A DNA stretch of 64,000 nt. Origin: Kordiimonadaceae bacterium. Lineage in GTDB: Bacteria; Pseudomonadota; Alphaproteobacteria; Sphingomonadales; Emcibacteraceae. Positions within the stretch are counted from its first letter, which is position 1, and the number at the start of each line of letters is the position of its first letter. The position numbers and the translations under genes were made by a program. Positions 10,117 through 40,928 of this stretch are shown here, piece by piece. The stretch covers positions 1 to 64,000 of the forward strand of contig JABJKT010000017.1 in assembly GCA_018660225.1 (NCBI GenBank), given 5' to 3'. The notes under the pieces are model-generated. The model had not been told where the DNA came from. It worked only from the letters and a program-made list of their open reading frames with translations, and made no database searches.

Positions 10117-10247
10117 TTATTACTCCGATTTACGTCACATGGTGCTTTTCTATCATACTCTCTATGTATGTTTTTGACACAAATCAATATTCATTTGAAA
10201 AAATTTGATTTATGATGATTTAAACAATAACTAATAAAGACACAATT

Positions 10248-11757: not shown

Positions 11758-11922
11758 ATGAGTAACATGAATGCTGAAAAAGTCTTGGAATGCTTATGCG
11801 ATGTAGCTTATCCGGATTTTAAACGGGACATCGTTTCTGCCGGGTTTATTCAAAACATTGACCTAGATCAATTTTACAAAAACTGTGGGATTATAGGTTC
11901 GTTATATAATCAAGGGGATTAA
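11758..11922 (+). pseudogene. Truncated 54-codon duplicate of the DUF59-like gene 5' end
   Basis: Reads MSNMNAEKVLECLCDVAYPDFKRDIVSAGFIQNID then runs in frame through the second promoter copy (LDQFYKNCGIIGSLYNQGD*). Confidence 0.75.
11858..11871 (+). promoter_or_regulatory. FNR/Dnr-type box (copy 2), TTGACCTAGATCAA
   Basis: Exact match to TTGAC-N4-ATCAA, followed about 20 bp downstream by a TTATAG/TATAAT-like region; ATG at 11925. Confidence 0.75.
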
Positions 11923-16626: not shown

Positions 16627-16628
16627 AA

Positions 16629-18188: not shown

Positions 18189-18193
18189 GAGAT

Positions 18194-18877
18194 ATGGCCA
18201 TGAATAAAGAAATGATTTCATCATGTTACAAACTGCTTGAGGAACTATTCATTTACCCGGAAGCAAGGGACAATGAATGGGTTGATGCAGAGCGTAAAAA
18301 TGTAAAGAACTATCCGAAATCAATCAGGAAACCTATAAAAGATTTTCTAAAAAATCCGGCATCGACTTCTAATGATGAATATATCAATACACTAGAGATA
18401 ACGCCTCCATGTCCTCTTTATCTTGGCACTTACCTATTTGATGAGCCTAATTCATGTAGAGGTGCCGGCATGTCTGGTCGTAATAACTATATGATGGAGC
18501 TGTCCGGCATTTATAACCATTTTGGTTTCCAGCTAAATGGCAAGGAATTGGCAGATTATCTTCCAGTTATATTGAACTTCTTGTCCGTGAGCCTTGCTCA
18601 GGAAGAAAAGGATAGTATTGGTATACGCCGTCGTTTTATGGAGCACCATTTGCTCATTGGACTGCCTGCTATGCTGGAATCATTAGAAAAATATGAAAGT
18701 CCTTATGGATCATTGATTGAGGCGCTAGTGGTCATATTAGGAGAAGATCTTGCCCTAATGGAAGACCTGCCGGCATGGATGCCACCCGCTAATGAAAACC
18801 CACCAAAGGATATTTCATGTTCCGGATGTGAATATGAATTCCTAAGCGATGATGAAAGAGAAAAGGAGCAAGCATAA
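18194..18877 (+). CDS. narJ: Nitrate reductase chaperone NarJ-like (nar-1)
   Basis: Position between narH and narI; PPCPLYLGTYLFDEP...; TorD/NarJ-like size. Confidence 0.8.
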   Translation: MAMNKEMISSCYKLLEELFIYPEARDNEWVDAERKNVKNYPKSIRKPIKDFLKNPASTSNDEYINTLEITPPCPLYLGTYLFDEPNSCRGAGMSGRNNYMMELSGIYNHFGFQLNGKELADYLPVILNFLSVSLAQEEKDSIGIRRRFMEHHLLIGLPAMLESLEKYESPYGSLIEALVVILGEDLALMEDLPAWMPPANENPPKDISCSGCEYEFLSDDEREKEQA

Positions 18878-19635
18878 TGAATAATTTCCTCTGGGGTGTT
18901 TACCCGTATATTTGTTTCACATTGTTTTTTCTTATCCCTATCATACGCATGAGATACCGGCCATATAGCATCACTACGCGGGCCAGTGGTATATTCGGTA
19001 GAAAGTTGCTTGGTGTATCAATGCTGCTGATGCATTGGGGGATATTGCTTGTCTTTGCCGGGCATATAGCCGGTTTTGTCGGCGGTATAACATTTGAAGA
19101 GACCTGGACTGAATTCTTCAGATATGCGGCCTTTGGCGGCGGTCTGATGACAATAGCCGGTTCAGGGATTGCCTTGTTACGCAGAATTACCGTTCCTGAA
19201 GTCAAAGCTATGAGCCAGCCGGATGATTACATTATTCATATCTTCCTGATTGCTATTTTGGGGGTCGCTCTTTACCAGTACGCAATACAGGATATTTTCG
19301 GTATGGTTTACGCGGTATCACCATGGTTCGTCAGTATATGGGTATTTGCGCCTGATCCAGAGCTTATGGAAGCTGCAAGTCTGCTTACAAAGATTCATGT
19401 ATTTCTGGCGATAACTCTGGCTGGATATTTCCCGTTTACAAAACTGGCTCATGTACTGACAGTGCCGATTAATTACTTTGTGCGCCCATATCAGTCCATG
19501 AGAACAGTAGGTAATAAATTTAAAGGGAAGTGGGAGTACTCTTTGCGCAGTGATAAATCCTTTATGGTTTATCTTCTGTTGTTCTTCTTTGTGGGCACAA
19601 TTATTTTGGCTAAGTATCTTATTGGCCTAGAATAA
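18877..19635 (+). CDS. narI: Nitrate reductase gamma subunit NarI-like (nar-1)
   Basis: Multi-TM with paired His (HWGILLVFAGHIAGF, TKIHVFLAITLAGYFPFTKLAHVLTVPINYFVRPYQ); start overlaps the narJ stop. Confidence 0.88.
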   Translation: MNNFLWGVYPYICFTLFFLIPIIRMRYRPYSITTRASGIFGRKLLGVSMLLMHWGILLVFAGHIAGFVGGITFEETWTEFFRYAAFGGGLMTIAGSGIALLRRITVPEVKAMSQPDDYIIHIFLIAILGVALYQYAIQDIFGMVYAVSPWFVSIWVFAPDPELMEAASLLTKIHVFLAITLAGYFPFTKLAHVLTVPINYFVRPYQSMRTVGNKFKGKWEYSLRSDKSFMVYLLLFFFVGTIILAKYLIGLE

Positions 19636-20227: not shown

Positions 20228-20674
20228 TTACACGAGGCCGACGATTTGTGCCTTATCCATTAAGCTATCAATGTAGGCTCTAAGGGCCGCCATGTGGCCC
20301 ATATCTTCCAGATAGGTCTTGATGTGGTTTTTCACCATATCGTAAGGAAGAAGTTCTCCGGTTTTTTGATCCACAAAGCTTTGCTGAAATTTATCATAAT
20401 GGCGCTGGCATGTTTCATCATCTGCATCGGGCACCTTAATGATGCTGTCAATCAGCCCTTCAATGATCCGTTCTTCACTTTCATTGTCCAGACCTTCAAG
20501 TTTTTCAGCAGATGTGAACTCCTGATCAACGGCCGCTTCCAGGAGCAGGTGTTTTACGACCAGGGCACGGGCCGCATCACCCCGTGCTTCTTCCATTGTT
20601 GCGGCCTGATGATGCTGCATTTCTGTGTGGACATCATCATCACTTATTTCCACATTATTTACAAAAACTGGCAT
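20228..20674 (-). CDS. nar-associated PpiC/NifM/NxrX-like protein lacking a central PPIase domain
   Basis: MPVFVNNVEISDDDVHTEMQ...KVPDADDETCQRHYDKFQQSFVDQ...YIDSLMDKAQIVGLV; 148 aa; downstream of narI-2. Confidence 0.7.
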   Translation of the reverse strand: MPVFVNNVEISDDDVHTEMQHHQAATMEEARGDAARALVVKHLLLEAAVDQEFTSAEKLEGLDNESEERIIEGLIDSIIKVPDADDETCQRHYDKFQQSFVDQKTGELLPYDMVKNHIKTYLEDMGHMAALRAYIDSLMDKAQIVGLV

Positions 20675-20684
20675 ATATATTTCC

Positions 20685-21404
20685 TTATCTGCGGCGCACG
20701 ATTTGATAACCTGTTCTGAACAGATACTTTATCGGCACGCTTAACACATGGACAAGTCTGGTGAACGGGAAGATCAGGAAGGTGGTAAGTCCAAGAACAA
20801 GATGAAGTTTAAAAACCACTGATATATCCATAATAAAATCGGCCGCACCGGGTCTGAATGTGACGATATGCTGGGCCCAGTTGGCCAGAAGTACCATTGA
20901 TGAGCCATCCATATGCTGTGCTGAATAAGGAATGGTGACAAGTCCTATAATCACCTGAATATAAAGCATGACCAATATGGCAATATCGGAAAAACGGCTG
21001 GTAGCCCGAACCCGTTTATCAAAAAGCCTTCTATGCAAAAGGATACTAAGACCGATAAAGCAGGTGATTCCGAATATACCGCCGGCAATCATGGCCATAA
21101 GTTGCTTTTGACCCGCCGTGATAAAATAGTGATAGATAGCTTCCGGCAGCAGCAGGCCGATTAAATGGCCAAAGAAAAGCAGGATGATGCCAATATGAAA
21201 CAGGTTGTTGCCCATGCGCATGCCTTTGGCGCGCAGCAGCTGGCTTGAGCCGGCCTTCCAGGTATATTGTTCGCGGTCATAACGAATGATCGAAACACCA
21301 ATCAGCATCATAATGCAGATGTAGGGATAGATACCAAAAAAGAACTGGTTGAAATACTCGAAAAAGGCGGTGAGATCAAAATATGAGAAAAATTCTGAGG
21401 TCAT
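20685..21404 (-). CDS. narI: Nitrate reductase gamma subunit NarI (nar-2)
   Basis: YFNQFFFGIYPYICIMMLIGVSIIRYDREQYTWKAGSSQLL, FHIGIILLFFGHLIG, FKLHLVLGLTTFLIFPFTRLVHVLSVP. Confidence 0.95.
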   Translation of the reverse strand: MTSEFFSYFDLTAFFEYFNQFFFGIYPYICIMMLIGVSIIRYDREQYTWKAGSSQLLRAKGMRMGNNLFHIGIILLFFGHLIGLLLPEAIYHYFITAGQKQLMAMIAGGIFGITCFIGLSILLHRRLFDKRVRATSRFSDIAILVMLYIQVIIGLVTIPYSAQHMDGSSMVLLANWAQHIVTFRPGAADFIMDISVVFKLHLVLGLTTFLIFPFTRLVHVLSVPIKYLFRTGYQIVRRR

Positions 21405-22096
21405 TGGTTTGCTCCTCCAGAAGGTTGTGAGAGTTGAGCTGAATTTTGTTCCGGGTAAGCTAATACTTGGGAGCTACCACATTCAGTAGAATTATCAAAC
21501 GCTTCGGCCTCGGCCCATTCCACGTCCAATTCTTCCAGCGACTGCGTTTCAAGTTCGGCGGCTGTTGCTGCCGCAATTACGTCACTGTCCGCTTTTGCTT
21601 TGGCCAGAGACTGCATGGCTTCAAACAAAATATAATAAAGACTGTCTCTCTTTTTCAGCTTAACACCAATGGTGGCGACAACATTTATCGGATCACCAAT
21701 TAGATCAATCGCTTCCTCGGCAGGGCAGCATGATAAATATTCCAAAAAGAGCGGAAGATAATCGGGAAGTTCGCCCTCAGCCATATAAAAGCCGCGTTCG
21801 GCATAACTTTCGATCAGGTTTACCATGGCCTGACCGCGATCGCGGCCTTCACCATGGATATGTTCAAACATATGCAGACAGTGGGCGTGCCCTCTATCAA
21901 ACAGTTCCACATATTCTTCCTGTAATTCGTATAAATCGCTCTGCTTGACATATTCGGTGAATTTGAGCAGTTTTTTCATTGCCCGCGTGGGCAGCAGGGC
22001 CTCTGATTTAAGCACCTGCTCGATTTCTGCCATATTATCTATCAGCGGCTGCTTCGGATAAGAAAGCAACATACCTATTATTTTAAAGGTTCTCAT
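21401..22096 (-). CDS. narJ: Nitrate reductase molybdenum cofactor assembly chaperone NarJ (nar-2)
   Basis: EEYVELFDRGHAHCLHMFEHIHGEGRDRGQAMVNL; LPDYLPLFLEYLS. Confidence 0.95.
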   Translation of the reverse strand: MRTFKIIGMLLSYPKQPLIDNMAEIEQVLKSEALLPTRAMKKLLKFTEYVKQSDLYELQEEYVELFDRGHAHCLHMFEHIHGEGRDRGQAMVNLIESYAERGFYMAEGELPDYLPLFLEYLSCCPAEEAIDLIGDPINVVATIGVKLKKRDSLYYILFEAMQSLAKAKADSDVIAAATAAELETQSLEELDVEWAEAEAFDNSTECGSSQVLAYPEQNSAQLSQPSGGANQ

Positions 22097-23646
22097 CTTT
22101 CTCTCCTTACTTTACCACTCATGGTATTTCTGTGAGTTGGTGAGGAGAACAAGTTAATTCGACCTTCACCGCCGGAACAGTCATTACCAAAGCTAAACCC
22201 GCATGACGCCCTTGATTCGAAGGCGATATCATTATCAAATGGTGTTTTGCCGGCATATTCACGGTGGTTTGTCGGAATGACGAAGCGGTCCTCATAATTG
22301 GCAATAGCCATAATGCGGTACATGTCATCAACAGTATCTTCATCAAGGCCTACCTCTGCAAGAAGGTCATGGTTTTTAGTACCCTCAACAGTGAGTTCAC
22401 GCATATATTCACGCATAGTCATCATCCGCCTCAGGGCAAAATCCACAGGTTCTGTTTTACCGGCTGTAAGCATGTTGGCTAGATATTTAACCGGGATTCT
22501 CAGATCATCTGTTTTAGGAACCGCACCATTGGATAAAAGCTTGCCTTCTTCCAGAGCCGATTGAACCGGCGACAGTGGCGGAATATACCATACCATCGGT
22601 AAAGTTCTGTATTCAGGATGAAGCGGGAATGCCACTTTCCATTCCTTGGCCATTTTATAAACCGGACTGTTTTGAGCGGCTTTAATCCAGCTACCCGGCA
22701 TGGCAATCCTTTTAGCTTCATCAATAACCGCCGGATCGGCAGGATCGAGGAAAGCATCAAGCTGCGCCTGATATAAATCTTGATCATTTTCAACGGATGC
22801 AGCGGCTTCGATTTTATCAGCATCATAAAGGAAAACACCAAGATAACGAATACGCCCAACACAGGTTTCCGAGCATACTGTCGGATCCCCCGATTCGAGG
22901 CGTGGATAGCAAAAGGTGCATTTTTCCGATTTACCACTATTCCAGTTAAAGTAAATCTTCTTATAAGGACAGCCACTGACGCACATACGCCAACCGCGGC
23001 ATTTATCCTGGTCAATAAGCACAACGCCGTCTTCTTCGCGTTTATAGATCGCACCACTAGGGCACGAAGCGACACAAGCCGGGTTCAGACAATGTTCACA
23101 GAGCCTCGGCAGATACATCATAAATGTTTTTTCGTAATCGCCGTATATCTCTTTTTCAATGTCTTTAAAGTTATAATCTTCGGAGCGTTTTGAAAATTCA
23201 CCGCCAAGAAGTTCTTCCCAGTTAGGGCCCCACTCTGGCTTACCCATCATCTCGCCGGTAAGCACCGAATGAATGCGGGCCGTAGGTGGTGTATTGACCT
23301 CAGGTGATTTTTGCAGCCTTTCATATTCAAATGTGAAAGGCTCGTAATAATCATCAATTTCCGGCAGATCGGGGTTGGCAAATATTTTGGAAAGAATACG
23401 GAATTTACCACCAAGTTTTGGCTTTATTTTTCCATTGCCAAGGCGAACCCAGCCACCATTCCATCTATCCTGATTTTCCCAGTCGCGCGGATAACCAATA
23501 CCCGGTTTTGTTTCAACATTATTAAACCATGCATATTCAACCCCTTCGCGGGTTGTCCATACGTTTTTACAGGTTACTGAACAGGTGTGACAGCCGATAC
23601 ATTTATCCAGGTTTAGCACCATTCCAATTTGAGCACGTAATTTCAT
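22093..23646 (-). CDS. narH: Nitrate reductase beta subunit NarH (nar-2)
   Basis: CIGCHTCSVTCKNVWTTREGVEYAWFNNVETKPG; CEHCLNPACVASCPSGAIYKREEDGVVLIDQDKCRGWRMCVSGCPYKKIYFNW. Confidence 0.97.
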   Translation of the reverse strand: MKLRAQIGMVLNLDKCIGCHTCSVTCKNVWTTREGVEYAWFNNVETKPGIGYPRDWENQDRWNGGWVRLGNGKIKPKLGGKFRILSKIFANPDLPEIDDYYEPFTFEYERLQKSPEVNTPPTARIHSVLTGEMMGKPEWGPNWEELLGGEFSKRSEDYNFKDIEKEIYGDYEKTFMMYLPRLCEHCLNPACVASCPSGAIYKREEDGVVLIDQDKCRGWRMCVSGCPYKKIYFNWNSGKSEKCTFCYPRLESGDPTVCSETCVGRIRYLGVFLYDADKIEAAASVENDQDLYQAQLDAFLDPADPAVIDEAKRIAMPGSWIKAAQNSPVYKMAKEWKVAFPLHPEYRTLPMVWYIPPLSPVQSALEEGKLLSNGAVPKTDDLRIPVKYLANMLTAGKTEPVDFALRRMMTMREYMRELTVEGTKNHDLLAEVGLDEDTVDDMYRIMAIANYEDRFVIPTNHREYAGKTPFDNDIAFESRASCGFSFGNDCSGGEGRINLFSSPTHRNTMSGKVRRER

Positions 23647-26600
23647 TATGCTAACTCCTCGTGACTTAACAGGCCTCTGGAATCAACCTGTTCATTGGTG
23701 GGCTCATCCAGCCAATCAATTTCATTCATTTTTCTTACCAACACAAACTCGTCCCGGTTTGATCCAACGGTTCCATAATAGTTAAATCCGTAGGAAAGCT
23801 GGGCATAACCGCCAATCATATGGGTTGGTTTAACCACCGTACGGGTAACAGAGTTATGAATACCACCACGTTTGCCCGATGTTTCGGCGGCGGGAGTATT
23901 AATAATTTTTTCCTGTGCGTGATACATCATGCACATGCCGTCCATAACCCGTTGGGAGACGACGACACGGGCGGCGATGGCACCATTGGTGTTATAAAAT
24001 TCAACCCAGTCGTTATCCTCCACATCAATTTTGCGGGCGTCATTTTCACTGATCCAGACAACCGGACCACCGCGACTTAATGTCAGCAGCAACAGGTTTT
24101 CAGAATAGGTGCTGTGAATGCCCCATTTTTGATGTGGTGTAATCCAGTTAAGGGTAATTTCTTTGTTACCGTTACTGAATTTTTCCTGCACCGGTTTAAG
24201 GGTTTTGGTGTTAATCGGCGGCTTATAGACGCAGAATCCCTCTCCGAAATCGCGCATCCAGTTATGATCCTGATAGAAATGCTGGCGCCCGGTGAGCGTC
24301 CTCCACGGAATAAGCTCATGCACATTGGTGTAACCCGCGTTATAGCTTACATGTTCATCTTCAAGGCCACTCCAGGTTGGCGAAGAAATGATTTTCCGTG
24401 GCTGAGCCTGAATATCGCGGAAGCGGATTTTTTCTTCCGCTTTAGGCATGGCAAGATGTTGATGCTCACGCCCGGTGAATTTCTCCAGAGCTTCCCATGC
24501 TTTAACCGCCACGGCCCCGTTGGTTTCAGGAGCAAGGGAAAGCACTATTTCCGCCGCATCAATATCGGTTTCGATACGTGGCAGACCCTTTGATACGCCA
24601 TCTTCCGTAACCACGTTGTTTAACTCGCCGAGGAATTTATATTCGGTTTCAGTATTCCAGGATATCCCTTTACCGCCATTACCGATTTTGGTCATGAGCG
24701 GCCCGAGAGCTGTGAATTTCTTATAAGTATCAGGATAGTTTCTGACCACCTCCACATAGTTGGGCATGGTTTTTCCGGGAATAGCGTCCACTTCACCTTT
24801 ATACCATTCTTTTGTATCCGTGGCCTGGGCAAGCTCGCCCGGTGTATCATGAAGGATAGGGAGGGCAACCACATCGGTTTCCTCGCCCAAATGTCCGACA
24901 CAGAGTTTGGAAAAGGTCTTTGCTAAACCTTTATAAATATACCAGTCACTACGGCTTTCCCACGCCGGATCAACGGCACGGCTAAGCGGATGAATAAATG
25001 GATGCATATCCGACGTATTAAGATCATTTTTCTCATACCATGTGGCAGATGGCAGAACGATGTCTGAATAAACGCAGGTTGTTGACATTCTGAAATCGAG
25101 TGTCACCAGAAGATCAAGCTTGCCCTCCGGTCCATCATCAACCCAATCAACTTCGGTCGGTTTTGGCATGCCGCGCTGGCCCAAATCTTTGCCCAACACA
25201 CTATTTTGGGTACCGAGCAAATATTTCAGCATATATTCATGGCCTTTACCACTGGAGCCGATGATATTGGAACGCCAGACAAACATTACTCTTGGGAAGT
25301 TTTTCGGATTGTCTGGAGCCTCGCATGACATGCGCAGCGATCTATCCTGCAAGCGGCCGGCAATATATTCAGCCGATGTTTTGCCGGCTTCTTTTGCCAG
25401 TTTGGTAAGCTCTAACGGGTTTTCCTCGAGCTGCGGTGCTGATGGTAACCAGCCCATGCGTTCGGAACGTACGTTACAGTCAATGAGCGAATAATCTTTC
25501 CAGTCATCCTTATTGGCAAGCGGTGACAAAATTTCATCGAGGCCGAGTTTTTCATAACGCCACTGACCGGCGTGACTATAGAAGAAGGATGTAGAGTTCA
25601 TATGGCGAGGCGGTCTGTTCCAGTCAAGAGCGAACGCGAGCGGCTGCCAGCCGGTTTGCGGACGGAGCTTTTCCTGACCCACATAATGGGCCCAGCCGCC
25701 ACCTGATTTACCGATACAGCCACACATGACGAGCATGTTGATGATGCCGCGGTAGGTCATATCCATATGATACCAATGGTTTATGGCGGCTCCGAGGATG
25801 ACCATAGAGCGGCCTTTTGTTTTATCGGCATTGAGGGCAAATTCGCGGGCTACCGCAATAATTTTCTCGCGGGAAATACCGGTAATTTTTTCCTGCCATG
25901 CCGGGGTATAAGGGGCGTCATCATCAAAATCCTTGGCAATGCTATCGCCGCCGAGACCCTGATCAACGCCGTAGTTAGCGACCATAAGATCATATACTGT
26001 AGCGACAAGGACGTCGCCGTCCTTTGTGCTGATTTTACGGGCCGGGATTCTATGCTTGAGTACGCTGTCGTGATCAGTGTGGCTGAAAATCGGCTGCTCA
26101 TGCTCCTGATTACCAAAATAAGGGTAACAGACATCAACCACTTCGTCATGCTGGCTGATAAAGGATTTTTCCGGCCATATATCTTCGCCGTTTGATAAAT
26201 TCTTCGATTCCAGGTTCCAGTTTTTCTCTTCGCCCCAGCGCGAACCGATGGTGCCGGTTGGCACAGTTAATTCATTGGTTTTGGTGTCATAAAGGACAGT
26301 TTTCCATTCAGGATTATTTTCCTGACCCATGTTATCTTCAAAATCAGCAGCGCGAAGCGTACGCCCTGCGACCAGCCCGCCTTCTGTTTCATCAAGACGA
26401 ACAAGGAATGGCATATCGGAATAAAGCCGGCAATATTCATCAAAATATTCGCTTTTGCCATCAACATGAAATTCTTTGAGGATCACATGGCCGAAAGCCA
26501 TAGCCATGGCTGAATCTGTTCCCTGACGCGGGTTAAGCCAAAGATCACTAAGCTTGGCAACTTCACTATAATCCGGAGTGACGGCCACTGTTTTTGTGCC

Positions 26601-27425
26601 TTTGTAGCGAACTTCGGTGAAGAAATGGGCGTCAGGTGTTCTGGTTTGCGGTACGTTTGAGCCCCAGGCGATAATATAGGAAGAGTTATACCAGTCGGCA
26701 CTTTCAGGCACGTCTGTTTGCTCACCCCAGGTTTGTGGCGAGGAGGGTGGTAAATCACAATACCAGTCATAGAAGCTCATGCATGTGCCACCGATTAATG
26801 ATAAATAACGGCTGCCCGCTGCATATGATATCATCGACATTGCTGGAATGGGGGAGAAGCCAATGATACGATCGGGGCCATATTTTTTAGCTGTAAAGAT
26901 ATTAGCCGACGCGATAATTTCATTGACCTCATCCCACTCAGCCCGGACAAATCCACCAAGACCACGGGCTGATTTGTATGATTTTGCTTTGTCTTGATTT
27001 TCAACAATATTTTCCCAAGCGACAACAGGATCGCGGTAGACATTTTTTCTCTCGCGCCACAATTTTAACAGGCGGCTTCTGATCATCGGGTATTTAACCC
27101 GGGCAGAACTATAAAGATACCAGCTGTAGCTAGCCCCTCTGGAGCAACCTCGCGGTTCATGGTTTGGAAGGTCGTTTCTGGTTCTGGGATAATCGGTTTG
27201 TTGAGTTTCCCAGGTAACCAGACCGCCTTTTACATAAATTTTCCAGCTACAAGAACCTGTGCAGTTCACGCCATGGGTAGAGCGGACGATTTTGTCATGA
27301 GCCCACCTGCCTCGGTAATCTTTCTCCCAGGTTCTGTCTTCACTGGTAGTTATGCCGTGACCTCCTGCGAAGGTCTCAGGTTTACTTTTCGTGAAGAAGG
27401 CTAGTCGGTCAATAAAGTGGCTCAT
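23646..27425 (-). CDS. narG: Nitrate reductase alpha subunit NarG (nar-2)
   Basis: STHGVNCTGSCSWKIYVKGGLVTWETQQTDYP; WYNSSYIIAWGSNVPQTRTPDAHFFTEVRYKG; 1259 aa. Confidence 0.97.
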   Translation of the reverse strand: MSHFIDRLAFFTKSKPETFAGGHGITTSEDRTWEKDYRGRWAHDKIVRSTHGVNCTGSCSWKIYVKGGLVTWETQQTDYPRTRNDLPNHEPRGCSRGASYSWYLYSSARVKYPMIRSRLLKLWRERKNVYRDPVVAWENIVENQDKAKSYKSARGLGGFVRAEWDEVNEIIASANIFTAKKYGPDRIIGFSPIPAMSMISYAAGSRYLSLIGGTCMSFYDWYCDLPPSSPQTWGEQTDVPESADWYNSSYIIAWGSNVPQTRTPDAHFFTEVRYKGTKTVAVTPDYSEVAKLSDLWLNPRQGTDSAMAMAFGHVILKEFHVDGKSEYFDEYCRLYSDMPFLVRLDETEGGLVAGRTLRAADFEDNMGQENNPEWKTVLYDTKTNELTVPTGTIGSRWGEEKNWNLESKNLSNGEDIWPEKSFISQHDEVVDVCYPYFGNQEHEQPIFSHTDHDSVLKHRIPARKISTKDGDVLVATVYDLMVANYGVDQGLGGDSIAKDFDDDAPYTPAWQEKITGISREKIIAVAREFALNADKTKGRSMVILGAAINHWYHMDMTYRGIINMLVMCGCIGKSGGGWAHYVGQEKLRPQTGWQPLAFALDWNRPPRHMNSTSFFYSHAGQWRYEKLGLDEILSPLANKDDWKDYSLIDCNVRSERMGWLPSAPQLEENPLELTKLAKEAGKTSAEYIAGRLQDRSLRMSCEAPDNPKNFPRVMFVWRSNIIGSSGKGHEYMLKYLLGTQNSVLGKDLGQRGMPKPTEVDWVDDGPEGKLDLLVTLDFRMSTTCVYSDIVLPSATWYEKNDLNTSDMHPFIHPLSRAVDPAWESRSDWYIYKGLAKTFSKLCVGHLGEETDVVALPILHDTPGELAQATDTKEWYKGEVDAIPGKTMPNYVEVVRNYPDTYKKFTALGPLMTKIGNGGKGISWNTETEYKFLGELNNVVTEDGVSKGLPRIETDIDAAEIVLSLAPETNGAVAVKAWEALEKFTGREHQHLAMPKAEEKIRFRDIQAQPRKIISSPTWSGLEDEHVSYNAGYTNVHELIPWRTLTGRQHFYQDHNWMRDFGEGFCVYKPPINTKTLKPVQEKFSNGNKEITLNWITPHQKWGIHSTYSENLLLLTLSRGGPVVWISENDARKIDVEDNDWVEFYNTNGAIAARVVVSQRVMDGMCMMYHAQEKIINTPAAETSGKRGGIHNSVTRTVVKPTHMIGGYAQLSYGFNYYGTVGSNRDEFVLVRKMNEIDWLDEPTNEQVDSRGLLSHEELA

Positions 27426-27612: not shown

Positions 27613-29229
27613 TTATGGATTTTTCACATATGCGTCCGGACGGAGGTAGAACCACCAGTTAATCAGCACACAGAGGAAGTAGAAAGCGGCAAATCCGTAA
27701 AGGGCATTTTCAGGAGTTGTCGCGGCCATTTCTTCACCGAACACTTGAGGGATGATGAAGGCACCATAAGCAGCAACCGCTGATGTCCATCCTAGAACCG
27801 GACCTGCCTGTTCTCTGTCAAACACGACGGCAATTGTTCTGAAGGTTGAACCGTTGCCAATACCTGTTGCGGTAAATAGCACGAGGAACAATGCCATAAA
27901 GGGCCAGAAATATTGTTCAGGTGTTGCAGATACATATGCCATTTTCATATAGTAAGCGACACCAAGAGCACTTGCAATCATAACAATAGATACATATTGA
28001 GTTACGCGTGCGCCACCAAATTTATCAGCAATCATGCCTCCAACTGGACGTATTAGGGCGCCAATGAAAGGGCCTGTCCAGGCAAACATAAGTGCACTTG
28101 GTCCATTTGGATTGACCATATCATGTGTCATCACGCCGCCCACATCAAGATGCTGAAAGCCGAAGATCACTTTAATGGATAGCCCGAATGCGGCTGAGTA
28201 GCCGATGAATGAGCCAAAGGTCATGGTATAGATAACGGTCATGGCCCATGTGTGCTTGTTGTTAAAGATTTTATATTGGCGTTTCAGGTTCTTGCCCAGT
28301 TCTCCAGGCATCATTTTAAGCGCATAAACGGTCATTATAATAACGATCGGCAGCACAACCCATTTGCTTAAGCCAATGCCGGAAGTTGGAAGGCCGTTAT
28401 TAAGGCTTGGCAGCATTAACCAGTAGCCGATACCAGCTGCAGCAAAACCAATAAGAAGCATAATCGTAATTTTCACGAATACTGAAACCGGATTGCCAAC
28501 ATTAGGCGACACATGATCATCAACGATGTTGTTCATTCCGAACCAACCAGCGAAGGCAAGCGGCACGAGGAATAATAACCATAACCAGGGAGCGTTATGG
28601 ATATATGTGTCCGTTCCAGCCGGAATTTTGCCGATCAGAGTACCGGAAGTATTAACCAGATCCATAGGATCACCACCAAAGATACCGAATGTCATAAAGA
28701 GCGGCACAAGGATTTGCATGGTTGTTACACCAAAGTTACCCAGACCTGCATTTAAACCAAGTGACAAACCTTGAACTTTCTTCGGGAAGAAGAAGCTTAT
28801 GTTTGACATTGATGAGGCGAAGTTACCGCCACCAAGGCCAGATAGGAAAGCAAGAAGCTGCCATTGCCAAAGAGGAGTATTAATGTCCTGCAAAGCAAAA
28901 CCAGCGAGAACTGCCGGGATCATCAGCAAGGCTGTGGTGAAAAAGATTGTATTTCGACCGCCGCCAAGACGAATAAAGAAGGTGCTCGGGATACGGAGCG
29001 TTGCACCGGTTAAGCCGGCAATAGCGGCCAGAGTAAAGAGTTCTGATTTTGCAATCGGGAACCCCAGGTTAAGCATTTGAATAGTTATAATGCCCCAATA
29101 GAGCCAGACGGCGAAGCCGCAGAGCAGGCTTGGGATGGAAATCCACAGGTTACGAGTGGCAATGGCTTTGCCAGTGGAGTTCCACTGTGCCTCGTCCTCC
29201 GGGTTCCAATTTTTTAGATCTTGTGCCAT
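27613..29229 (-). CDS. narK: Nitrate/nitrite transporter NarK-type (MFS)
   Basis: GLGGGNFASSMSNISFFFPKKVQGLSLGLNAGLGNFGVTTMQ signature; nar-linked. Confidence 0.92.
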   Translation of the reverse strand: MAQDLKNWNPEDEAQWNSTGKAIATRNLWISIPSLLCGFAVWLYWGIITIQMLNLGFPIAKSELFTLAAIAGLTGATLRIPSTFFIRLGGGRNTIFFTTALLMIPAVLAGFALQDINTPLWQWQLLAFLSGLGGGNFASSMSNISFFFPKKVQGLSLGLNAGLGNFGVTTMQILVPLFMTFGIFGGDPMDLVNTSGTLIGKIPAGTDTYIHNAPWLWLLFLVPLAFAGWFGMNNIVDDHVSPNVGNPVSVFVKITIMLLIGFAAAGIGYWLMLPSLNNGLPTSGIGLSKWVVLPIVIIMTVYALKMMPGELGKNLKRQYKIFNNKHTWAMTVIYTMTFGSFIGYSAAFGLSIKVIFGFQHLDVGGVMTHDMVNPNGPSALMFAWTGPFIGALIRPVGGMIADKFGGARVTQYVSIVMIASALGVAYYMKMAYVSATPEQYFWPFMALFLVLFTATGIGNGSTFRTIAVVFDREQAGPVLGWTSAVAAYGAFIIPQVFGEEMAATTPENALYGFAAFYFLCVLINWWFYLRPDAYVKNP

Positions 29230-29243
29230 GAGTTAGTCCTTTT

Positions 29244-30635
29244 TCAAGTTTCTTGTTTAATTTGACTGATAACAGCTTCGCTTTGTTTGCGTATAGCCGC
29301 TGTTTTTTCTTGTAGTTCTTCGCTTTCTTTCATGAGCGCTTCTAGCTCAGGCAAATATCTTGGTCCGCGAAGTTCGGGAGATGATTTTTTGTCCATTCGA
29401 ACAATTGAAACATGCATCCAAAGAAGCGCTATACCGATAAGAAGGGTAAGCAGCATGAAACAGCTGGTCCAAATTCCAATAACGTCATTCATATAACCAA
29501 AGGCGATCGGTAGACAAAAGCCACCAAGTCCACCAATAAGGCCGACAATGCCGCCTACGGAACCCACGTGGTTCGGGTAATAAACAGGGATATGTTTATA
29601 TACTGCCGCTTTACCAAGGGACATGAAGAAGCCAAGCACAATAGTAAGCGATACAAATGCCCAAAGAGGAATTGTAATGTTAAATTCTACAGGGCCCTGA
29701 ATACCAGCAATGTTATAATCAGTGGACGGATATGACATGATAAATGTACAGGCAACACATACAACGAAGGTCCAGTACATGACGCGCCTTGCGCCGATTA
29801 TGTCGGATAGATAACCGCCAAGAGCGCGGAAGATACTACCCGGAAGGGCGTAAGCAGCGGCTAGCATGCCGGCCGTACCAAGTTCAAGTCCGTAAGCGCC
29901 CACATAATAACGTGGTAGCCAAAGAGCAAGAGCAACAAAGGCGCCGAATACAAAGAAGTAATAGAGTGAGAAACGCCAAACTTGCAGATTTCTCAGAGGT
30001 TCCATTTGCTCCATGAAAGTGGCGTGTTTAATGCCTTCTGCTTTACGGCGCCGAAGGGCGGGATCATCTTTTGTTACGATGTAAAACAAAACGCCAGTGA
30101 TAAGAAGAATTATGGAATAAACCTGTGCCACACCTTGCCAGGCGCCGCCCATTGCAACGAGTAAAATAGGAGCACCAAAGTTTGTTACGGCAGCACCGAC
30201 ATTACCCATGCCGAAAATACCAAGGGCAGTACCTTGTTTTTCTGATGGATACCAAGTTGATACATATGCGATACCCACTGCAAAACTACCGCCGGCAAGG
30301 CCAAGGCCAAGGGCGGCAAGCAGGAACATCGGATAAGTTGATACTTTAGTAAGCAGGTATGCTGCTACGGCAGTAATGATCATTTGCAAGCTGAAAACCA
30401 GTCGCCCACCATATTGGTCTGTCCAAACACCGAGAAAAATACGGCTCAGTGAGCCGGTTAAAATAGGTGTCGCTACCAGTAATCCAAACTCAGTATCACT
30501 AAGTCCGAGCTCTGCTTTGATTTTTATGCCGATTATGGAAAAGATAGTCCATACAGCAAAACATACGGTAAAAGCGAGCGTACTAGTTGTTAGGGCACGT
30601 TTCTGTTCGCCTGATGTAACATTGAGAGCATTCAT
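29244..30635 (-). CDS. narK: Nitrate transporter NarK1-type (MFS)
   Basis: LGLAGGSFAVGIAYVSTWYPSEKQGTALGIFGMGNVGAAVTNF; VGSVGGIVGLIGGLGGFCLP. Confidence 0.9.
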   Translation of the reverse strand: MNALNVTSGEQKRALTTSTLAFTVCFAVWTIFSIIGIKIKAELGLSDTEFGLLVATPILTGSLSRIFLGVWTDQYGGRLVFSLQMIITAVAAYLLTKVSTYPMFLLAALGLGLAGGSFAVGIAYVSTWYPSEKQGTALGIFGMGNVGAAVTNFGAPILLVAMGGAWQGVAQVYSIILLITGVLFYIVTKDDPALRRRKAEGIKHATFMEQMEPLRNLQVWRFSLYYFFVFGAFVALALWLPRYYVGAYGLELGTAGMLAAAYALPGSIFRALGGYLSDIIGARRVMYWTFVVCVACTFIMSYPSTDYNIAGIQGPVEFNITIPLWAFVSLTIVLGFFMSLGKAAVYKHIPVYYPNHVGSVGGIVGLIGGLGGFCLPIAFGYMNDVIGIWTSCFMLLTLLIGIALLWMHVSIVRMDKKSSPELRGPRYLPELEALMKESEELQEKTAAIRKQSEAVISQIKQET

Positions 30636-30708: not shown

Positions 30709-30722
30709 TTGACCAAGATCAA
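30709..30722. promoter_or_regulatory. FNR/Dnr-type box TTGACCAAGATCAA between narK and regulator
   Basis: Exact TTGAC-N4-ATCAA, about 80 bp upstream of the narK (minus) start codon. Confidence 0.8.
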
Positions 30723-30876: not shown

Positions 30877-32466
30877 ATGAAAGAATCGCTGATTCCCTTG
30901 GGACGGATTATGCATGAAATGCAGAAGGAGCGTGGCTGCGTTATCCTTCATTTGTCTAGTAATTTGGCCCTTGATGAAGAAGGAATCCGCCAGAAATTTC
31001 TGGAAAGTAACTATACAGTTGAAGAGCTTACGGCCAAACTTCCGCAGTGGAAGAAAGAGGGTAAGCTCGAAGACGGCATGGATAAAAAAATTGCCAATGT
31101 TCTTGATGAAATTAAAAAAATATCTACCCAGCGTGATTTAGTTTTAACTAAAGAGATAAGTGCTACGGACAGTATTTCTGTTTATAGCCATAAAATTATT
31201 GGCCCAATTATTGATTTAATGATCGAAGTTGCTCTTAATGATCCCGACCACGATTCGACCCATGTCAGCGCCTATTCAAATTTCCTTAATCTTAAAGAAC
31301 GCATTGGCAGGGAAAGGGCCTTAGGCATAAGGGGCCTCGTTACTAATTCATTTTCCAACGAAGAGTTTATTAATAATTATAGTTTTCTTATCTCTGAACA
31401 AGATAGCTATATGGATACCTTTATGGCGCTGGCAACGCCAAGCCAGAAAGCCTGTTATAGCCGATATATGAATGACTATTCTGTCAAAAAAATTGATGAA
31501 ATGCATAAGACACTTCAAGATGAGAAAAATGGCAGTAGCTTCGATATTTCGCCCCAGGACTGGTATGATCTGGTGTCACAAAAAATTGATTTAATGCATA
31601 ATGTTGAAACGGATTTGGTCGCTACATTATTAACGGATGAGCAAAAGACCGAAAAACCAGAAGAAAAAACGGATCGGCTTTATGTGGGGCTTAACAGCTT
31701 TTCCGCAAAGCAACAGGAATTTATACAGACACTCCCACTCTTTAAGGGACTTCCGGAACCTACTCTGGCAGACCTGTTTAGAAATGCTTCCGTAGGCAGC
31801 TATAAAAAGGGCAAATTGCTGTTTCTGGAAGGGGAGCTTCCAAATAGGCTTTATATTATCCTTGATGGCTGGGTTAAGCTTTATAAAGGTAATTCAAATG
31901 GCGAGGAAACCATCGTTCAGATGCTGACCAGCGGCGATATGATTGCAGAATCGGCGGTGTTTTTAAATGCGCCGTTTCCCGTTAGCGCCCAAGTGGCCAA
32001 AAGCGCACAAATTTTAACGATGCCAGCCCCTATTATAAGGGAAAATGTCAAATCGAATAATGCCCTTGCTATCAATGTATTAACGGCCATGTCGGTCCAT
32101 TCACAGCTTCTTATTCAGGGACTTGAAAGTATACGACTAAAATCGGCTACTGAAAGAGTGGGGTGGTTTTTACTTAAACTACTGCTTGAGCAGGGACGGG
32201 TTCCAGATATGGTTGAGCTTCCCTACGATAAGTCACTGATCGCCTCATATTTGGATATGAAGCCGGAAACATTCTCGAGGACCTTGAAGAAGTTTAAACA
32301 AAAGGGCTTTGAAATCCGCAAGGATGCGGTCATCTTGCCACAAGTAAAGGCGCTGTGCGGTTTTTGTGATTCGGATGTCGCCGGGATTTGTTCTCGCCAT
32401 GGAACGGATGAATGCCCAAACCCGGACTGTCTTTCAAGCAAAGATGAAATCATTTTTTATGACTAA
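30877..32466 (+). CDS. Candidate NIT-like (nitrate/nitrite-sensing) domain plus Crp/Fnr-family transcriptional regulator with Cys-rich tail
   Basis: N-terminal ~260 aa helical with MQKERGCVILHLSS and LNLKERIGRERALGIRGLV (NIT-like); then cNMP-like domain LPLFKGLPEPTLADLF...LYIILDGWVKLYKG...GDMIAESAVF and HTH LIASYLDMKPETFSRTLKKF (FNR-like ExxSR); tail CGFC...C...C...C. Confidence 0.8.
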   Translation: MKESLIPLGRIMHEMQKERGCVILHLSSNLALDEEGIRQKFLESNYTVEELTAKLPQWKKEGKLEDGMDKKIANVLDEIKKISTQRDLVLTKEISATDSISVYSHKIIGPIIDLMIEVALNDPDHDSTHVSAYSNFLNLKERIGRERALGIRGLVTNSFSNEEFINNYSFLISEQDSYMDTFMALATPSQKACYSRYMNDYSVKKIDEMHKTLQDEKNGSSFDISPQDWYDLVSQKIDLMHNVETDLVATLLTDEQKTEKPEEKTDRLYVGLNSFSAKQQEFIQTLPLFKGLPEPTLADLFRNASVGSYKKGKLLFLEGELPNRLYIILDGWVKLYKGNSNGEETIVQMLTSGDMIAESAVFLNAPFPVSAQVAKSAQILTMPAPIIRENVKSNNALAINVLTAMSVHSQLLIQGLESIRLKSATERVGWFLLKLLLEQGRVPDMVELPYDKSLIASYLDMKPETFSRTLKKFKQKGFEIRKDAVILPQVKALCGFCDSDVAGICSRHGTDECPNPDCLSSKDEIIFYD

Positions 32467-32526: not shown

Positions 32527-33777
32527 TTAGAATTTTGTGGCGACTTGCACCCAGAATTTAGTTGTATTCACGCTGAAAGCATCCGCATTATATTTGGCGA
32601 ATTTAAACAGCACGTTATATCTGTCAATTTTAGTTGCGATGGACGCATCCCACTCTGAACCATAGTGAAGACTACCAACATCAGATTTAAAATCATGATA
32701 TATGACGGCTAAAGTTGTTCCGTCCATGGCTGTGCCAGTGTCTTTGACGGCATAAGCAGCATTTACATATAGATCACGAAGACCATTCGCTGGTGTACCG
32801 AGGAATTTATCAGCCCAACCATTGAACTTATGAAGTGTCGCAAGAGGAGTAGTGAAGGACTTGGCGCCACCATCACTGCCCAATGTTTCAATACCGCCTT
32901 TAAGGGTTATCCCTTGGAAGACTACGCCAGCTTCTAAATTATAATATTTTGTTGAATAATCGACAGGATTATTAGCGGCGTCTGATTGTGTTGCATATTC
33001 AGCGGCATAGAGAATTTTTGTGCCGCCGTCCAAGTCTTGGGAGCCACTGGCCCGTATACCGAATGTATTGCTGTTTAGGCCTTTTACGCCAGCCATATCA
33101 AGATCAATCATCAAGCCATAAGAATTAATAGTTAAGCCTTTGATGCCTTTATAGGTCACGTCTAAAACATTTGTTTTAGTTTCCAGATCGCCTGCGGGAT
33201 GATCGTTACCGAAAATTCGGTTCACGTTCCAAACATAGCCGTAAACGACAGTCAGATCTTCTATTGAGTTGTTAATAATGGCAGCAGAATCAAATGTCTG
33301 ATCATTTTGACGCCAGCCAACAGTTCCGACGAAACGCTGAGTGCCTAGATTTAGGGCCTGACGACCAACAGCAACGGTTGTTTTGTCCATGCCGGTATAA
33401 GCCAAATATGCCTGATTAACTTCAGTATGGTTAGCATCTGCAATGACGGGATAGTCCGTTTTACCGTTAATGGTGTTGTTATAATCACCGCCAGCGACTT
33501 CTGCGGAATGTTCAAATTCGATAACGCCAGACAAGCCTTTCCAAATACCGGTTTTATAACCGAGCTTCGTACGCAGTGTATTGGCAAGGGCATTTTCAGT
33601 TAAATTTTCCTGTGAGACACTTTCCAGTCTGTATCTTGCGTCGATATAGGCCTCGCCGCCGCTAATGGCGTCAGCGAGGCTATCTGCTTCTTGTGCATTT
33701 GCAGCAAAAGATGCTGAAAAGGCTAGTGATGTTGATGCCATTAATATTAGTTTGGCAATTGGTGTAGGAGAATTCAT
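32527..33777 (-). CDS. Outer-membrane porin (alginate-export/OprD-like beta-barrel)
   Basis: Signal peptide ending AANAQEA; ISGGEAYIDARYRLESVSQENL, VAVGRQALNLGTQRFVGTVGWRQNDQTFD; terminal aromatic F (KFWVQVATKF). Confidence 0.8.
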   Translation of the reverse strand: MNSPTPIAKLILMASTSLAFSASFAANAQEADSLADAISGGEAYIDARYRLESVSQENLTENALANTLRTKLGYKTGIWKGLSGVIEFEHSAEVAGGDYNNTINGKTDYPVIADANHTEVNQAYLAYTGMDKTTVAVGRQALNLGTQRFVGTVGWRQNDQTFDSAAIINNSIEDLTVVYGYVWNVNRIFGNDHPAGDLETKTNVLDVTYKGIKGLTINSYGLMIDLDMAGVKGLNSNTFGIRASGSQDLDGGTKILYAAEYATQSDAANNPVDYSTKYYNLEAGVVFQGITLKGGIETLGSDGGAKSFTTPLATLHKFNGWADKFLGTPANGLRDLYVNAAYAVKDTGTAMDGTTLAVIYHDFKSDVGSLHYGSEWDASIATKIDRYNVLFKFAKYNADAFSVNTTKFWVQVATKF

Positions 33778-33839: not shown

Positions 33840-33853
33840 TTGATAGAGATCAA
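33840..33853. promoter_or_regulatory. Consensus FNR box TTGATAGAGATCAA upstream of porin
   Basis: Exact TTGAT-N4-ATCAA, 63 bp upstream of the porin start codon. Confidence 0.82.
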
Positions 33854-38114: not shown

Positions 38115-39212
38115 ATGATAAAAAATATTAATAATTCTCCTTCACTTATTATGGGCATTGAAAGTAGTTGCGATGAAACGGCAGTTGCTATTGTTTCAAG
38201 TGAAAAAGAAATTCTTGCCAACATTATTCTAACCCAACTTGAAGAGCATAAACCATATGGCGGCGTTGTGCCGGAAATTGCCGCGCGTTCGCATATTGAC
38301 CATCTGAATGGCCTTGTTCGTGAAGCACTTGGCAAGGCAAAAGTAGAGCTAGACGACTTGTCGGCGATTGCAGTGACTTCTGGCCCTGGCTTAATCGGCG
38401 GGGTAATGGTCGGGCTGATGACAGCGAAAGCTATCGCTTTTTCAAAAAACCTGCCGCTTATCAGCGTAAATCATCTTGAGGGACATGCGCTATCTATTCG
38501 GCTGACGGAAGAAATAGAGTTTCCTTATTTGCTGCTTCTTGTATCAGGAGGACACTGTCAGCTTCTCGTCGTTAAGGGGGTCGGTGATTATGAACGGCTT
38601 GGCACAACTATTGACGATGCGGCGGGCGAAGCGTTTGATAAAACGGCTAAAATTCTTGGTCTGGATTATCCCGGCGGTCCGGCTGTGGAAAAAGCGGCGC
38701 TGAAGGGCGATAGTTCTCGGTTTAAATTTCCAAGACCACTTAAAGGAAAGCCGGGCAGTAATTTTTCATTTTCCGGCCTTAAAACGGCAGTGGTGCGCGC
38801 TAAAGAAAAGCTGCTGGCGGAACAGGACGGCACGTTAACGAGAGCGGATATCTGCGATCTTGCGGCAAGTTTTCAGATGGCCTTAACAGATGCTATAATC
38901 GACCGGGTAAAAAACGGCATTGATTATTATCTTGAACATTACCCGCTAAATGACCATATGTTGGTGGTAGCCGGTGGTGTTGCAGCAAATAGTAAGATAA
39001 AAGAAAAGTTGTCTGGATTATGTGAGGGGCGAGGATTAAAATTAAAAGCGCCACCACTTGAGCTCTGCACCGATAATGGAGCAATGATCGCCTGGGTCGG
39101 GGTAGAGAAATTCGAAGAAGAGCAATTTTCTGAGCTCGATGTTAGTGCGGTCGCAAGGTGGCCGCTTGATCCAGATGCACCACCCGCAATAGGGGCCGGT
39201 GTAAAAGCATAA
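38115..39212 (+). CDS. tsaD: tRNA N6-adenosine threonylcarbamoyltransferase
   Basis: MGIESSCDETAVAIV; GVVPEIAARSHIDHL; LLLVSGGHCQLL. Start moved to MIKNINNSPS; the track start is upstream in the hemC 5' region. Confidence 0.95.
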   Translation: MIKNINNSPSLIMGIESSCDETAVAIVSSEKEILANIILTQLEEHKPYGGVVPEIAARSHIDHLNGLVREALGKAKVELDDLSAIAVTSGPGLIGGVMVGLMTAKAIAFSKNLPLISVNHLEGHALSIRLTEEIEFPYLLLLVSGGHCQLLVVKGVGDYERLGTTIDDAAGEAFDKTAKILGLDYPGGPAVEKAALKGDSSRFKFPRPLKGKPGSNFSFSGLKTAVVRAKEKLLAEQDGTLTRADICDLAASFQMALTDAIIDRVKNGIDYYLEHYPLNDHMLVVAGGVAANSKIKEKLSGLCEGRGLKLKAPPLELCTDNGAMIAWVGVEKFEEEQFSELDVSAVARWPLDPDAPPAIGAGVKA

Positions 39213-39241
39213 TGTAATAAAAATAATAAGACGGGTAATTG

Positions 39242-40252
39242 ATGGAAGATAATATTAAGCAAAAGACGAGCATAAGCGTCATTGGTGCTGGGGCATGGGG
39301 AACCGCGCTTGCGCATTTATCGGCAAATGCGGGGTGCGAGGTTAACTTGTGGGCTCTTGAAGAGGACGTCGTGACGTCAATAAACGAAAGACATGAGAAT
39401 GAAACCTACCTACCAGGCGTAACGCTTTCGAAAGATATATCGGCGACCAATGATCTCGCAAAAATTGCCAGCGCGGAGTTTATTTTTGTGGTGACGCCGG
39501 CGCAATTTGTCCGCTCCTTACTAGTTGAGCTTAAACCTCTTATATCCGAAAAGGCGGCGGTCGTACTATGTGCCAAGGGGATAGAACAGTCTACCGGTAA
39601 GATAATGAGTGAAGTTGTCTCTGAAATATTACCTAAAACGCCGCTGGTTGTTCTTTCGGGGCCAACTTTTGCCCGTGAAGTTGCTCTTGGGTTACCGTCT
39701 GCGGTAACGATAGCCTCAAAATATCAACAGATTACCACAAGACTTTCCGCTGCAATTGGTCAGCCAACTTTTAGACCATATGCATCGCGTGATGTGGTGG
39801 GGGCTGAAATTGGCGGTGCACTGAAAAATGTTTTTGCCATTGCCTGCGGTGTCACTACCGGCAAGAAAATGGGCGATAATGCCCGCGCCGCACTAATCAC
39901 CAGAAGCCTTTCGGAAATGGTTCGCTTTGGCGAGAGGTACGGCGCAGACAGATCAACCATGATGGGTCTTTGCGGGCTTGGGGATTTAATACTGACCTGC
40001 TCTTCGACCCAATCAAGGAATATGTCTTTAGGGATTGCGATCGGCGAAGGGAAAACTGTTGCGGAACTTATGGAGGGGCGTAAAACGGTCGCTGAAGGGT
40101 ATCATACATCCTCAGTGCTTGCGAAAATATGCCGCGAGGAACAAATTGACTTGCCAATTGTTATGGCTGTGAATGATATTCTTCATGAAGGTGAAGATGT
40201 TGATACGGTTATTACGGATCTACTTAATAGACCGTTTGTATCTGAAATTTAA
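39242..40252 (+). CDS. gpsA: Glycerol-3-phosphate dehydrogenase (NAD(P)+)
   Basis: SVIGAGAWGTALAHL; VLSGPTFAREVALGLPSAVTIAS; GLGDLILTCSSTQSRN. Confidence 0.96.
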   Translation: MEDNIKQKTSISVIGAGAWGTALAHLSANAGCEVNLWALEEDVVTSINERHENETYLPGVTLSKDISATNDLAKIASAEFIFVVTPAQFVRSLLVELKPLISEKAAVVLCAKGIEQSTGKIMSEVVSEILPKTPLVVLSGPTFAREVALGLPSAVTIASKYQQITTRLSAAIGQPTFRPYASRDVVGAEIGGALKNVFAIACGVTTGKKMGDNARAALITRSLSEMVRFGERYGADRSTMMGLCGLGDLILTCSSTQSRNMSLGIAIGEGKTVAELMEGRKTVAEGYHTSSVLAKICREEQIDLPIVMAVNDILHEGEDVDTVITDLLNRPFVSEI

Positions 40253-40270
40253 AAATAAAAAGGAAATAAA

Positions 40271-40570
40271 ATGCAATTTATAATTACGGCTTTTGATAAA
40301 GAAAACAGTCTTGATCTTCGTATGAGCGTCAGGGCGGATCATTTGGCCTATGCAAACGAAAAAGGTATCACTCTTATTGCCGGTCCACTGCTTACGGAGA
40401 GCGATGATCCAAAACCAAGAGGCAGCATGATTATTATTGAAGCCGACAGCAAACAAGCCGCTGAAGAATATGCTGCCAATGACCCCTACGCAAAAGCAGG
40501 TCTTTTTGATAAAGTGACCGTACGCCCGTGGATGGCCGCTATCGGGAGCTGGCTTCCTTCAAGTGATTAA
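40271..40570 (+). CDS. YciI family protein
   Basis: R.SVRADHLAYA...GPLL....PRGSMIIIEADSKQAAEEYAANDPYAKAGLFDKVTVRPW. Confidence 0.85.
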   Translation: MQFIITAFDKENSLDLRMSVRADHLAYANEKGITLIAGPLLTESDDPKPRGSMIIIEADSKQAAEEYAANDPYAKAGLFDKVTVRPWMAAIGSWLPSSD

Positions 40571-40928
40571 ACTAAGCGCTATAAATGTCGGGCTGGGCGT
40601 CGGCGATATTTTATGTTCACTCAACGACATAGAAGATGGCTGCGCTAAGGAATTTTCTTACCGTTCGGACCGTGATATTTATGATATTTTCATTCAACGT
40701 CACGGGGGAGATGTTTTTGCCTTCGTCAATAATTGTCCGCACGCCGGAATGCCGCTCAATATGGAAGCGGGGAAATTTATGGAAAAAACAGGTAAATATC
40801 TGATGTGCCATACCCACGGCGCGCTATTTCAATTATCAGACGGACTTTGTGTGGCGGGACCCTGCAACGGGGCATCCTTGCAATCCGTCGATGTCCTGAT
40901 TGAAAAGGGCAATATAATAGTTGTCTAA
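40563..40928 (+). CDS. Rieske-type [2Fe-2S] protein
   Basis: NNCPHAGMPLN ... CHTHGALFQLSDGLC; GTG start overlapping the previous gene. Confidence 0.85.
   Translation: MIKLSAINVGLGVGDILCSLNDIEDGCAKEFSYRSDRDIYDIFIQRHGGDVFAFVNNCPHAGMPLNMEAGKFMEKTGKYLMCHTHGALFQLSDGLCVAGPCNGASLQSVDVLIEKGNIIVV

Follow-up and report, generated by a model that had tools for sequence, protein, structure and literature searches.

A gene of a Kordiimonadaceae bacterium (GenBank assembly GCA_018660225.1) encodes a regulator in which an N-terminal NIT (nitrate/nitrite-sensing) domain is fused to a C-terminal Crp/Fnr half, and with a probability that we place at roughly 0.77 this protein is a cytoplasmic one-component, nitrate/nitrite-responsive activator that controls narK1-narK2-narGHJI through its NIT and FNR-type halves. 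The ligand, the sign of regulation (activation versus repression), the occupancy of the operator and the autoregulation of the regulator gene are what we infer. NIT and Crp/Fnr are known families, and the new part is their fusion, of which the openly accessible literature, as searched here, yielded no published account.

Nitrate sensing for respiration in alphaproteobacteria that operate without NarXL is poorly explained, and NarR has no described sensor domain. The NIT-CRP family represents a soluble one-component regulator; as its sensor is related to a domain of known structure in which the ligand residues have been mapped, the direct sensing of nitrate by a member of the FNR family can be put to the test with a single purified protein and a single promoter. 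Such a regulator may also serve as a compact nitrate biosensor.

Architecture of the fusion protein

The stretch of DNA analysed here (‘the window’; 64,000 nucleotides of contig JABJKT010000017.1) contains the features listed in Table 1. All three Pfam matches of the 529-aa regulator lie above cut-off, in the order NIT, cNMP-type barrel, HTH_Crp_2, and a search against NCBIfam returned no equivalog above cut-off, the nearest models being of the FtrB type. The original prediction, made from the sequence alone, had proposed a NIT-like domain joined to a Crp/Fnr protein, and this is confirmed by the Pfam domains, the intact ORF and the existence of homologues: 63 full-length proteins of this kind were found in named genomes. 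Because the same architecture recurs in these homologues, which come from independent assemblies and extend down to 33% identity, mis-assembly or chance can be ruled out as the source of the fusion.

Table 1. Features of the regulator and its surroundings (positions are those of the window, except in the last two rows).
Feature	Position	Strand	Remarks
NIT-Crp/Fnr fusion regulator gene	30877..32466	+	intact ORF, ATG start, 529 aa; 3 Pfam domains
NIT nitrate/nitrite-sensing domain, residues 11-251	30907..31629	+	PF08376, 128 bits vs cut-off 24.9, E 9.4e-37
Predicted ligand pocket, first half, Q16-K-E-R19	30922..30933	+	R19 aligns with NasR R50 (profile alignment to 4AKK)
Predicted ligand pocket, second half, G144-R-E-R147	31306..31317	+	R147 aligns with NasR R176
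Linker joining NIT and Crp/Fnr halves, residues 255-273	31639..31695	+	pLDDT <50 (full-length model); variable in alignment
cNMP-type beta barrel, residues 308-389	31798..32043	+	PF00027 cNMP_binding, E 1.3e-17
Crp-type helix-turn-helix, residues 426-494	32152..32358	+	PF13545 HTH_Crp_2, E 2.9e-10
PETFSR, residues 463-468, start of recognition helix (FNR-type ExxSR)	32263..32280	+	E464, S467 and R468 invariant, 44/44
Four-cysteine tail C494-x2-C497-D-x6-C505-x7-C513, plus non-invariant C518	32356..32430	+	residues 494-513 form the Cys4 segment
TTGACCAAGATCAA, predicted operator, divergent narK/regulator promoter	30709..30722	.	perfect TTGAY-N4-RTCAA
TTGATAGAGATCAA, predicted operator upstream of porin-like gene	33840..33853	.	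perfect box
TTGACCTAGATCAA box, just upstream of 11925-12725 and second nar operon	11858..11871	.	perfect box
narK1-like nitrate/nitrite transporter, divergent neighbour	29244..30635	-	TIGR00886 NarK family, E 1.8e-66, below curated cut-off
narK2-like nitrate/nitrite transporter	27613..29229	-	NarU/NarK models, E 4e-86 and 1e-79, below curated cut-off
narG, respiratory nitrate reductase alpha	23646..27425	-	TIGR01580, 2184 bits, cut-off 1084
narH	22093..23646	-	assigned by gene order and similarity to second nar set in related loci
narJ	21401..22096	-	assigned by position only
narI	20685..21404	-	assigned by gene order and similarity to second nar set in related loci
Porin-like outer-membrane gene (Alginate_exp)	32527..33777	-	PF13372, E 3.7e-9
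NIT-lost or degenerate regulator, no longer beside nar (G010)	L113:3740-4528
NIT-lost or degenerate regulator, no longer beside nar (G011)	L114:3833-5404

The NIT half and its predicted ligand pocket

When the full-length model was compared with the PDB, only Crp-type proteins appeared among the best 50 matches, and the NIT half was therefore modelled and searched alone. An AlphaFold2 model of residues 1-256 (44 homologues; pLDDT 93, pTM 0.92) is all-helical, and both chains of 4AKK (NasR) were its only Foldseek matches in the PDB with E <0.001 (E 4e-6, TM 0.76 on query). A profile built from five NIT halves gave a single significant PDB match, again NasR 4AKK (E 4e-20). The suggestion that residues 1 to ∼260 are helical and NIT-like thus stood up to the comparison with PF08376 and NasR, the predicted fold being NasR-like. 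The sequence motifs that had been quoted in its favour are real and represent the pair of ligand motifs known from NIT domains, here Q16-K-E-R19 and G144-R-E-R147.

Q16-x-x-R19 aligns on Q-C-E-R77, and G144-x-x-R147 on G-Q-E-R203, of the 4AKK chain; subtraction of 27 from the 4AKK numbering (for an assumed tag) converts R77 to R50 and R203 to R176. Arg50 and Arg176 have been reported as the putative ligand pocket of NasR (PMC7247690), E175 and R176 are named in a second paper (PMC7496416), and according to a review the NasR motif keeps both arginines, with one glycine changed to glutamine (PMC8199190). Both R19 and R147 are invariant in 44/44 aligned relatives, the sole invariant residues of the NIT half in these sequences being Q16, E18, R19, K140, G144, R147, G150, F182 and W229, and among the 63 full-length homologues G144-R-E-R147 is lost in a single protein (L037). 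NasR requires nitrate or nitrite in order to bind its RNA (PMC7496416). Since the pocket residues match those of NasR and are invariant, nitrate/nitrite is, as far as sequence comparison indicates, the best-supported candidate ligand of the NIT domain. The NasR NIT domain keeps its output domain off until nitrate binds (PMC7496416), and mutation of the pocket arginines locks that protein ON (PMC7247690); the direction of signalling can therefore not be read from the conservation of the pocket.

The Crp/Fnr output half

The C-terminal half had been described as a full Crp/Fnr protein with the FNR-type ExxSR motif in the form PETFSR, a description borne out by the PF00027 and PF13545 matches and by the invariance of the three motif residues. 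Its nearest structural relative is 3FX3/3H3Z, a Crp-family protein of Ruegeria pomeroyi (Foldseek, 3FX3 E 1e-13), followed by DNR, whose structure 3DKW matches the Crp half with E 2e-23. The N-terminal [4Fe-4S] cysteine motif of E. coli-type FNR is absent from the regulator, the N-terminus of which is the NIT domain.

Given this resemblance to DNR, which also has ETFSR, and the FNR-like operator, the regulator might be an NO sensor like DNR/NNR, with the NIT domain reduced to a vestigial or structural dimerisation module; this appears improbable, as the pocket residues are the most conserved of the NIT domain and the only copy to have lost the motif is no longer located beside nar. Far less probable still is a cAMP- or cyclic-nucleotide-responsive Crp protein carrying NIT as an accessory domain. 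While the PF00027 match would accommodate such a protein, the barrel position that matches the cAMP phosphate-binding arginine of GlxR is F367 here and F, Y or S among the relatives, and because this position is not conserved a cyclic nucleotide ligand for the barrel is unlikely; cAMP was rejected on these grounds.

The nar neighbourhood and predicted operators

The two narK genes and two nar operons that the original prediction placed beside the regulator are all present, and the link to them is strengthened by the retention of narK divergence and of the operator box. The gene is nar-linked in 58/63 full-length homologues and directly divergent from narK in 48/63; the remaining five comprise three copies with short flanks (L036, L053, L074) and two unlinked to nar, namely L037 and L091, the latter with its pocket intact. 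Perfect TTGAY-N4-RTCAA boxes occur in 45 of the 48 narK-divergent promoters (0.07 expected under a first-order Markov model), and the window contains five of them, against 0.2 expected. Both marks of FNR-type specificity, the ExxSR helix and a TTGAT-type predicted box, are thereby present. A perfect box is also found upstream of the homologous porin in all loci having that porin (7/7), and the porin-like gene of the window is possibly co-regulated.

The second, divergent narGHJI operon (window 12823-19635) is preceded by a 266-aa FeS_assembly_P protein (11925-12725) and a perfect box; among 61 related genomes, only G046 and G051 have full-length narG copies of this divergent kind with similar scores (about 1420-1440 bits). 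The divergently oriented genes 9070-10116 (-) and 10248-10898 (+, carbonic anhydrase) have a perfect TTGAC-N4-RTCAA box between them, at 10174-10187. Where the nar cluster ends, a 148-aa ORF (window 20228-20674) has no Pfam match.

Other candidate regulators in the genome

A genome-wide search with PF13675 (NarX/NarQ-type sensors) gave no match in the source genome and a positive result in the E. coli control, in agreement with the earlier suggestion of nitrate/nitrite input without NarXL or NarPQ, and a second NIT protein was not found in that genome. One other clear Crp/Fnr protein is encoded there, the FnrN/FixK-like L002, which bears a cysteine cluster at its N-terminus as well as an ExxSR helix. 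L002 could bind the same FNR-like boxes, so box conservation alone does not assign these to the NIT-Crp regulator; the genome would thus have a candidate sensor for O2 and another for nitrate, both acting on a common FNR-like operator.

A conserved four-cysteine tail

The original prediction holds with respect to the NIT domain, the ExxSR helix and the absence of NarX/NarQ, but it missed the four-cysteine (‘Cys4’) tail that directly follows the DNA-binding domain. The four cysteines and D498 are invariant in 44/44 aligned sequences, the cysteines across 33-78% identity, and the exact spacing is kept in 62 of the 63 full-length homologues, L054 being the exception. Confinement of the tail to NIT fusions can be rejected: it is present in two close relatives without NIT (L057 and L094) and in a sister family lacking NIT, among whose members are L111, L112, L116 and L119-L122, and is absent from the Crp-only relatives L097-L110. 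narK adjoins the sister-family genes at L111:7553-8416, L112:7724-8464, L116:6944-7792 and L119:1498-2241, and in the first three of these it is a fused narK1-narK2 of about 975 aa; the sister family is possibly the true NarR lineage. The tail-bearing proteins, NIT fusions included, grouped together (support 92) in a quick tree built on the Crp half, and thus, to judge from these sequences, the tail is probably older than the fusion. A NIT-CRP occurs together with a Cys4 paralogue lacking NIT in one Rickettsiales MAG (L094 and L079).

Located beside a DNA-binding domain, the Cys4 tail likely binds a metal, an Fe-S sensor being about as likely as structural zinc, and it may constitute a second (O2 or NO) sensor. 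According to one tentative reading the protein receives two inputs, with NIT sensing nitrate/nitrite and the tail holding an O2- or NO-labile [4Fe-4S] cluster, such that the nitrate-plus-anoxia decision, which is split between NarXL and FNR in E. coli and between NreA and NreB in staphylococci, would be taken within one polypeptide. The invariance and placement of the cysteines are consistent with this, as are their occurrence in NIT-less sisters, some of them beside narK, and the retention of the tail where NIT has been lost (L057, L094); in Bacillus Fnr, moreover, cysteines near the C-terminus hold a [4Fe-4S] cluster that senses O2 (PMC3520743, PMC8139620, PMC12937710). The spacing, however, is unlike the C-x2-C-x4-C plus Asp of Bacillus Fnr, the cluster here is hypothetical, and the genome already possesses its FnrN/FixK-like candidate O2 sensor. 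It is somewhat doubtful that the regulator is a one-protein AND gate, in which NIT (nitrate/nitrite) and a previously undescribed Cys4 metal site (O2 or NO) would be combined in a protein binding the nar promoter directly. If the tail is redox-active, both inputs to the control of nitrate respiration would reside in one chain.

Also conceivable, though again short of probable, is a structural zinc knuckle that steadies the winged helix or contacts RNA polymerase, leaving NIT as the sole input. A 14-member tail alignment gave no significant match to Pfam or the PDB, zinc domains included, and the tail is modelled with moderate confidence in the full-length protein (pLDDT about 60-81), which argues against a knuckle; the grouping of four cysteines in a short segment is nevertheless zinc ribbon-like, and single members show weak, sub-threshold similarity to metal-binding domains such as PyrI_C.

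Loss of the NIT domain away from nar

narG is present in 29/29 related genomes with a full-length copy of the regulator versus 8/32 without, a co-occurrence confounded by shared ancestry. Between the carbonic anhydrase gene and hemY, genomes G010 and G011 have the regulator and no nar genes; each carries a different nar operon at another site, next to a fused narK and a Cys4 regulator that lacks NIT. The old regulators of these two genomes have either lost NIT altogether (L057) or lost the pocket motif (L037); the Crp half and the Cys tail are retained in both. Of the genus-mates, G001 has no narG, and all that was found of the regulator there is a 75-residue C-terminal remnant (84% identical; G001:C18:50285-50509), which looks like a decaying pseudogene. 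Taken together, the loss of NIT or its pocket away from nar and the G001 remnant suggest that the NIT domain is linked to nar, and that the Crp half and tail together serve a purpose of their own.

A model for nitrate-responsive control

If the regulator is the one-component activator proposed above, nitrate or nitrite would be bound by the N-terminal NIT domain between R19 and R147, and binding would free or reorient the C-terminal FNR-type dimer, most simply by a NasR-like release of the output or by a changed dimer geometry. The dimer, positioned on the TTGAY-N4-RTCAA box of the narK/regulator promoter, would activate narK1-narK2-narGHJI and probably also the flanking porin gene and the regulator's own gene. 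A second input might enter at the Cys4 tail via a metal, perhaps as an O2/NO-sensitive Fe-S cluster. The regulator would in this way take the role of NarX/NarL in enterobacteria and of NarR in Paracoccus, and a NarR-like activation of nar would be consistent with its location next to narK.

NasR, the NIT-ANTAR antiterminator of Klebsiella oxytoca, was the parallel drawn originally, and we retain it: it too is a one-component nitrate/nitrite receptor, with the same NIT fold and pocket arginines, although its output is an RNA-binding ANTAR domain serving nitrate assimilation, whereas a DNA-binding FNR-type output beside respiratory nar is predicted here. The parallel is incomplete, in that NarR is also close and so, should the tail prove to be an Fe-S site, are NreA/NreB of staphylococci. 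NarR, from Paracoccus denitrificans and other alphaproteobacteria and compared here by description only, is an FNR-like, nitrate/nitrite-responsive regulator of nar that operates without NarXL (PMC8139620); it is described as lacking a [4Fe-4S] cluster, and in that account no NIT domain is mentioned and nitrate sensing is left unexplained (PMC8139620). NreA/NreB would be comparable if the tail senses O2, as nitrate and O2 are co-sensed there for nar control (PMC8139620), but by a separate GAF nitrate receptor, an Fe-S histidine kinase and a response regulator instead of one chain. The Fnr proteins of Bacillus subtilis and B. cereus, which in B. subtilis control nar, are, like the regulator, Crp/Fnr proteins with cysteines in a C-terminal extension, which are metal ligands in Fnr and putative ones here, and differ from it in the cysteine spacing and Asp ligand noted above and in having no NIT domain. 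Among solved or named proteins, those closest to the Crp half (3FX3/3H3Z, FtrB and DNR) are represented by matched chains without NIT, and the aligned 3FX3/3H3Z sequence has no Cys4 tail.

Distribution of the family

The 63 full-length NIT-CRP proteins derive mostly from Emcibacteraceae, Kordiimonadales, Robiginitomaculum, Hyphomonadaceae and Asticcacaulis, with one gammaproteobacterium, Exilibacterium (L055), in which the same divergent arrangement is found. Kordiimonas sediminis and K. marina are among the carriers that can be cultured. At E <1e-60, NIT-CRP was detected in 2/387 sampled alphaproteobacteria and in 3/399 genomes of a phylum sample, each count including the source genome, and searches of plasmids yielded neither a full-length NIT-CRP nor an identifiable NarR. 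One locus (L115) harbors two tandem full-length NIT-CRP genes (G007:C106:36057-37619 and 39151-40695), the products of which share 56% and 62% identity with the regulator described here.
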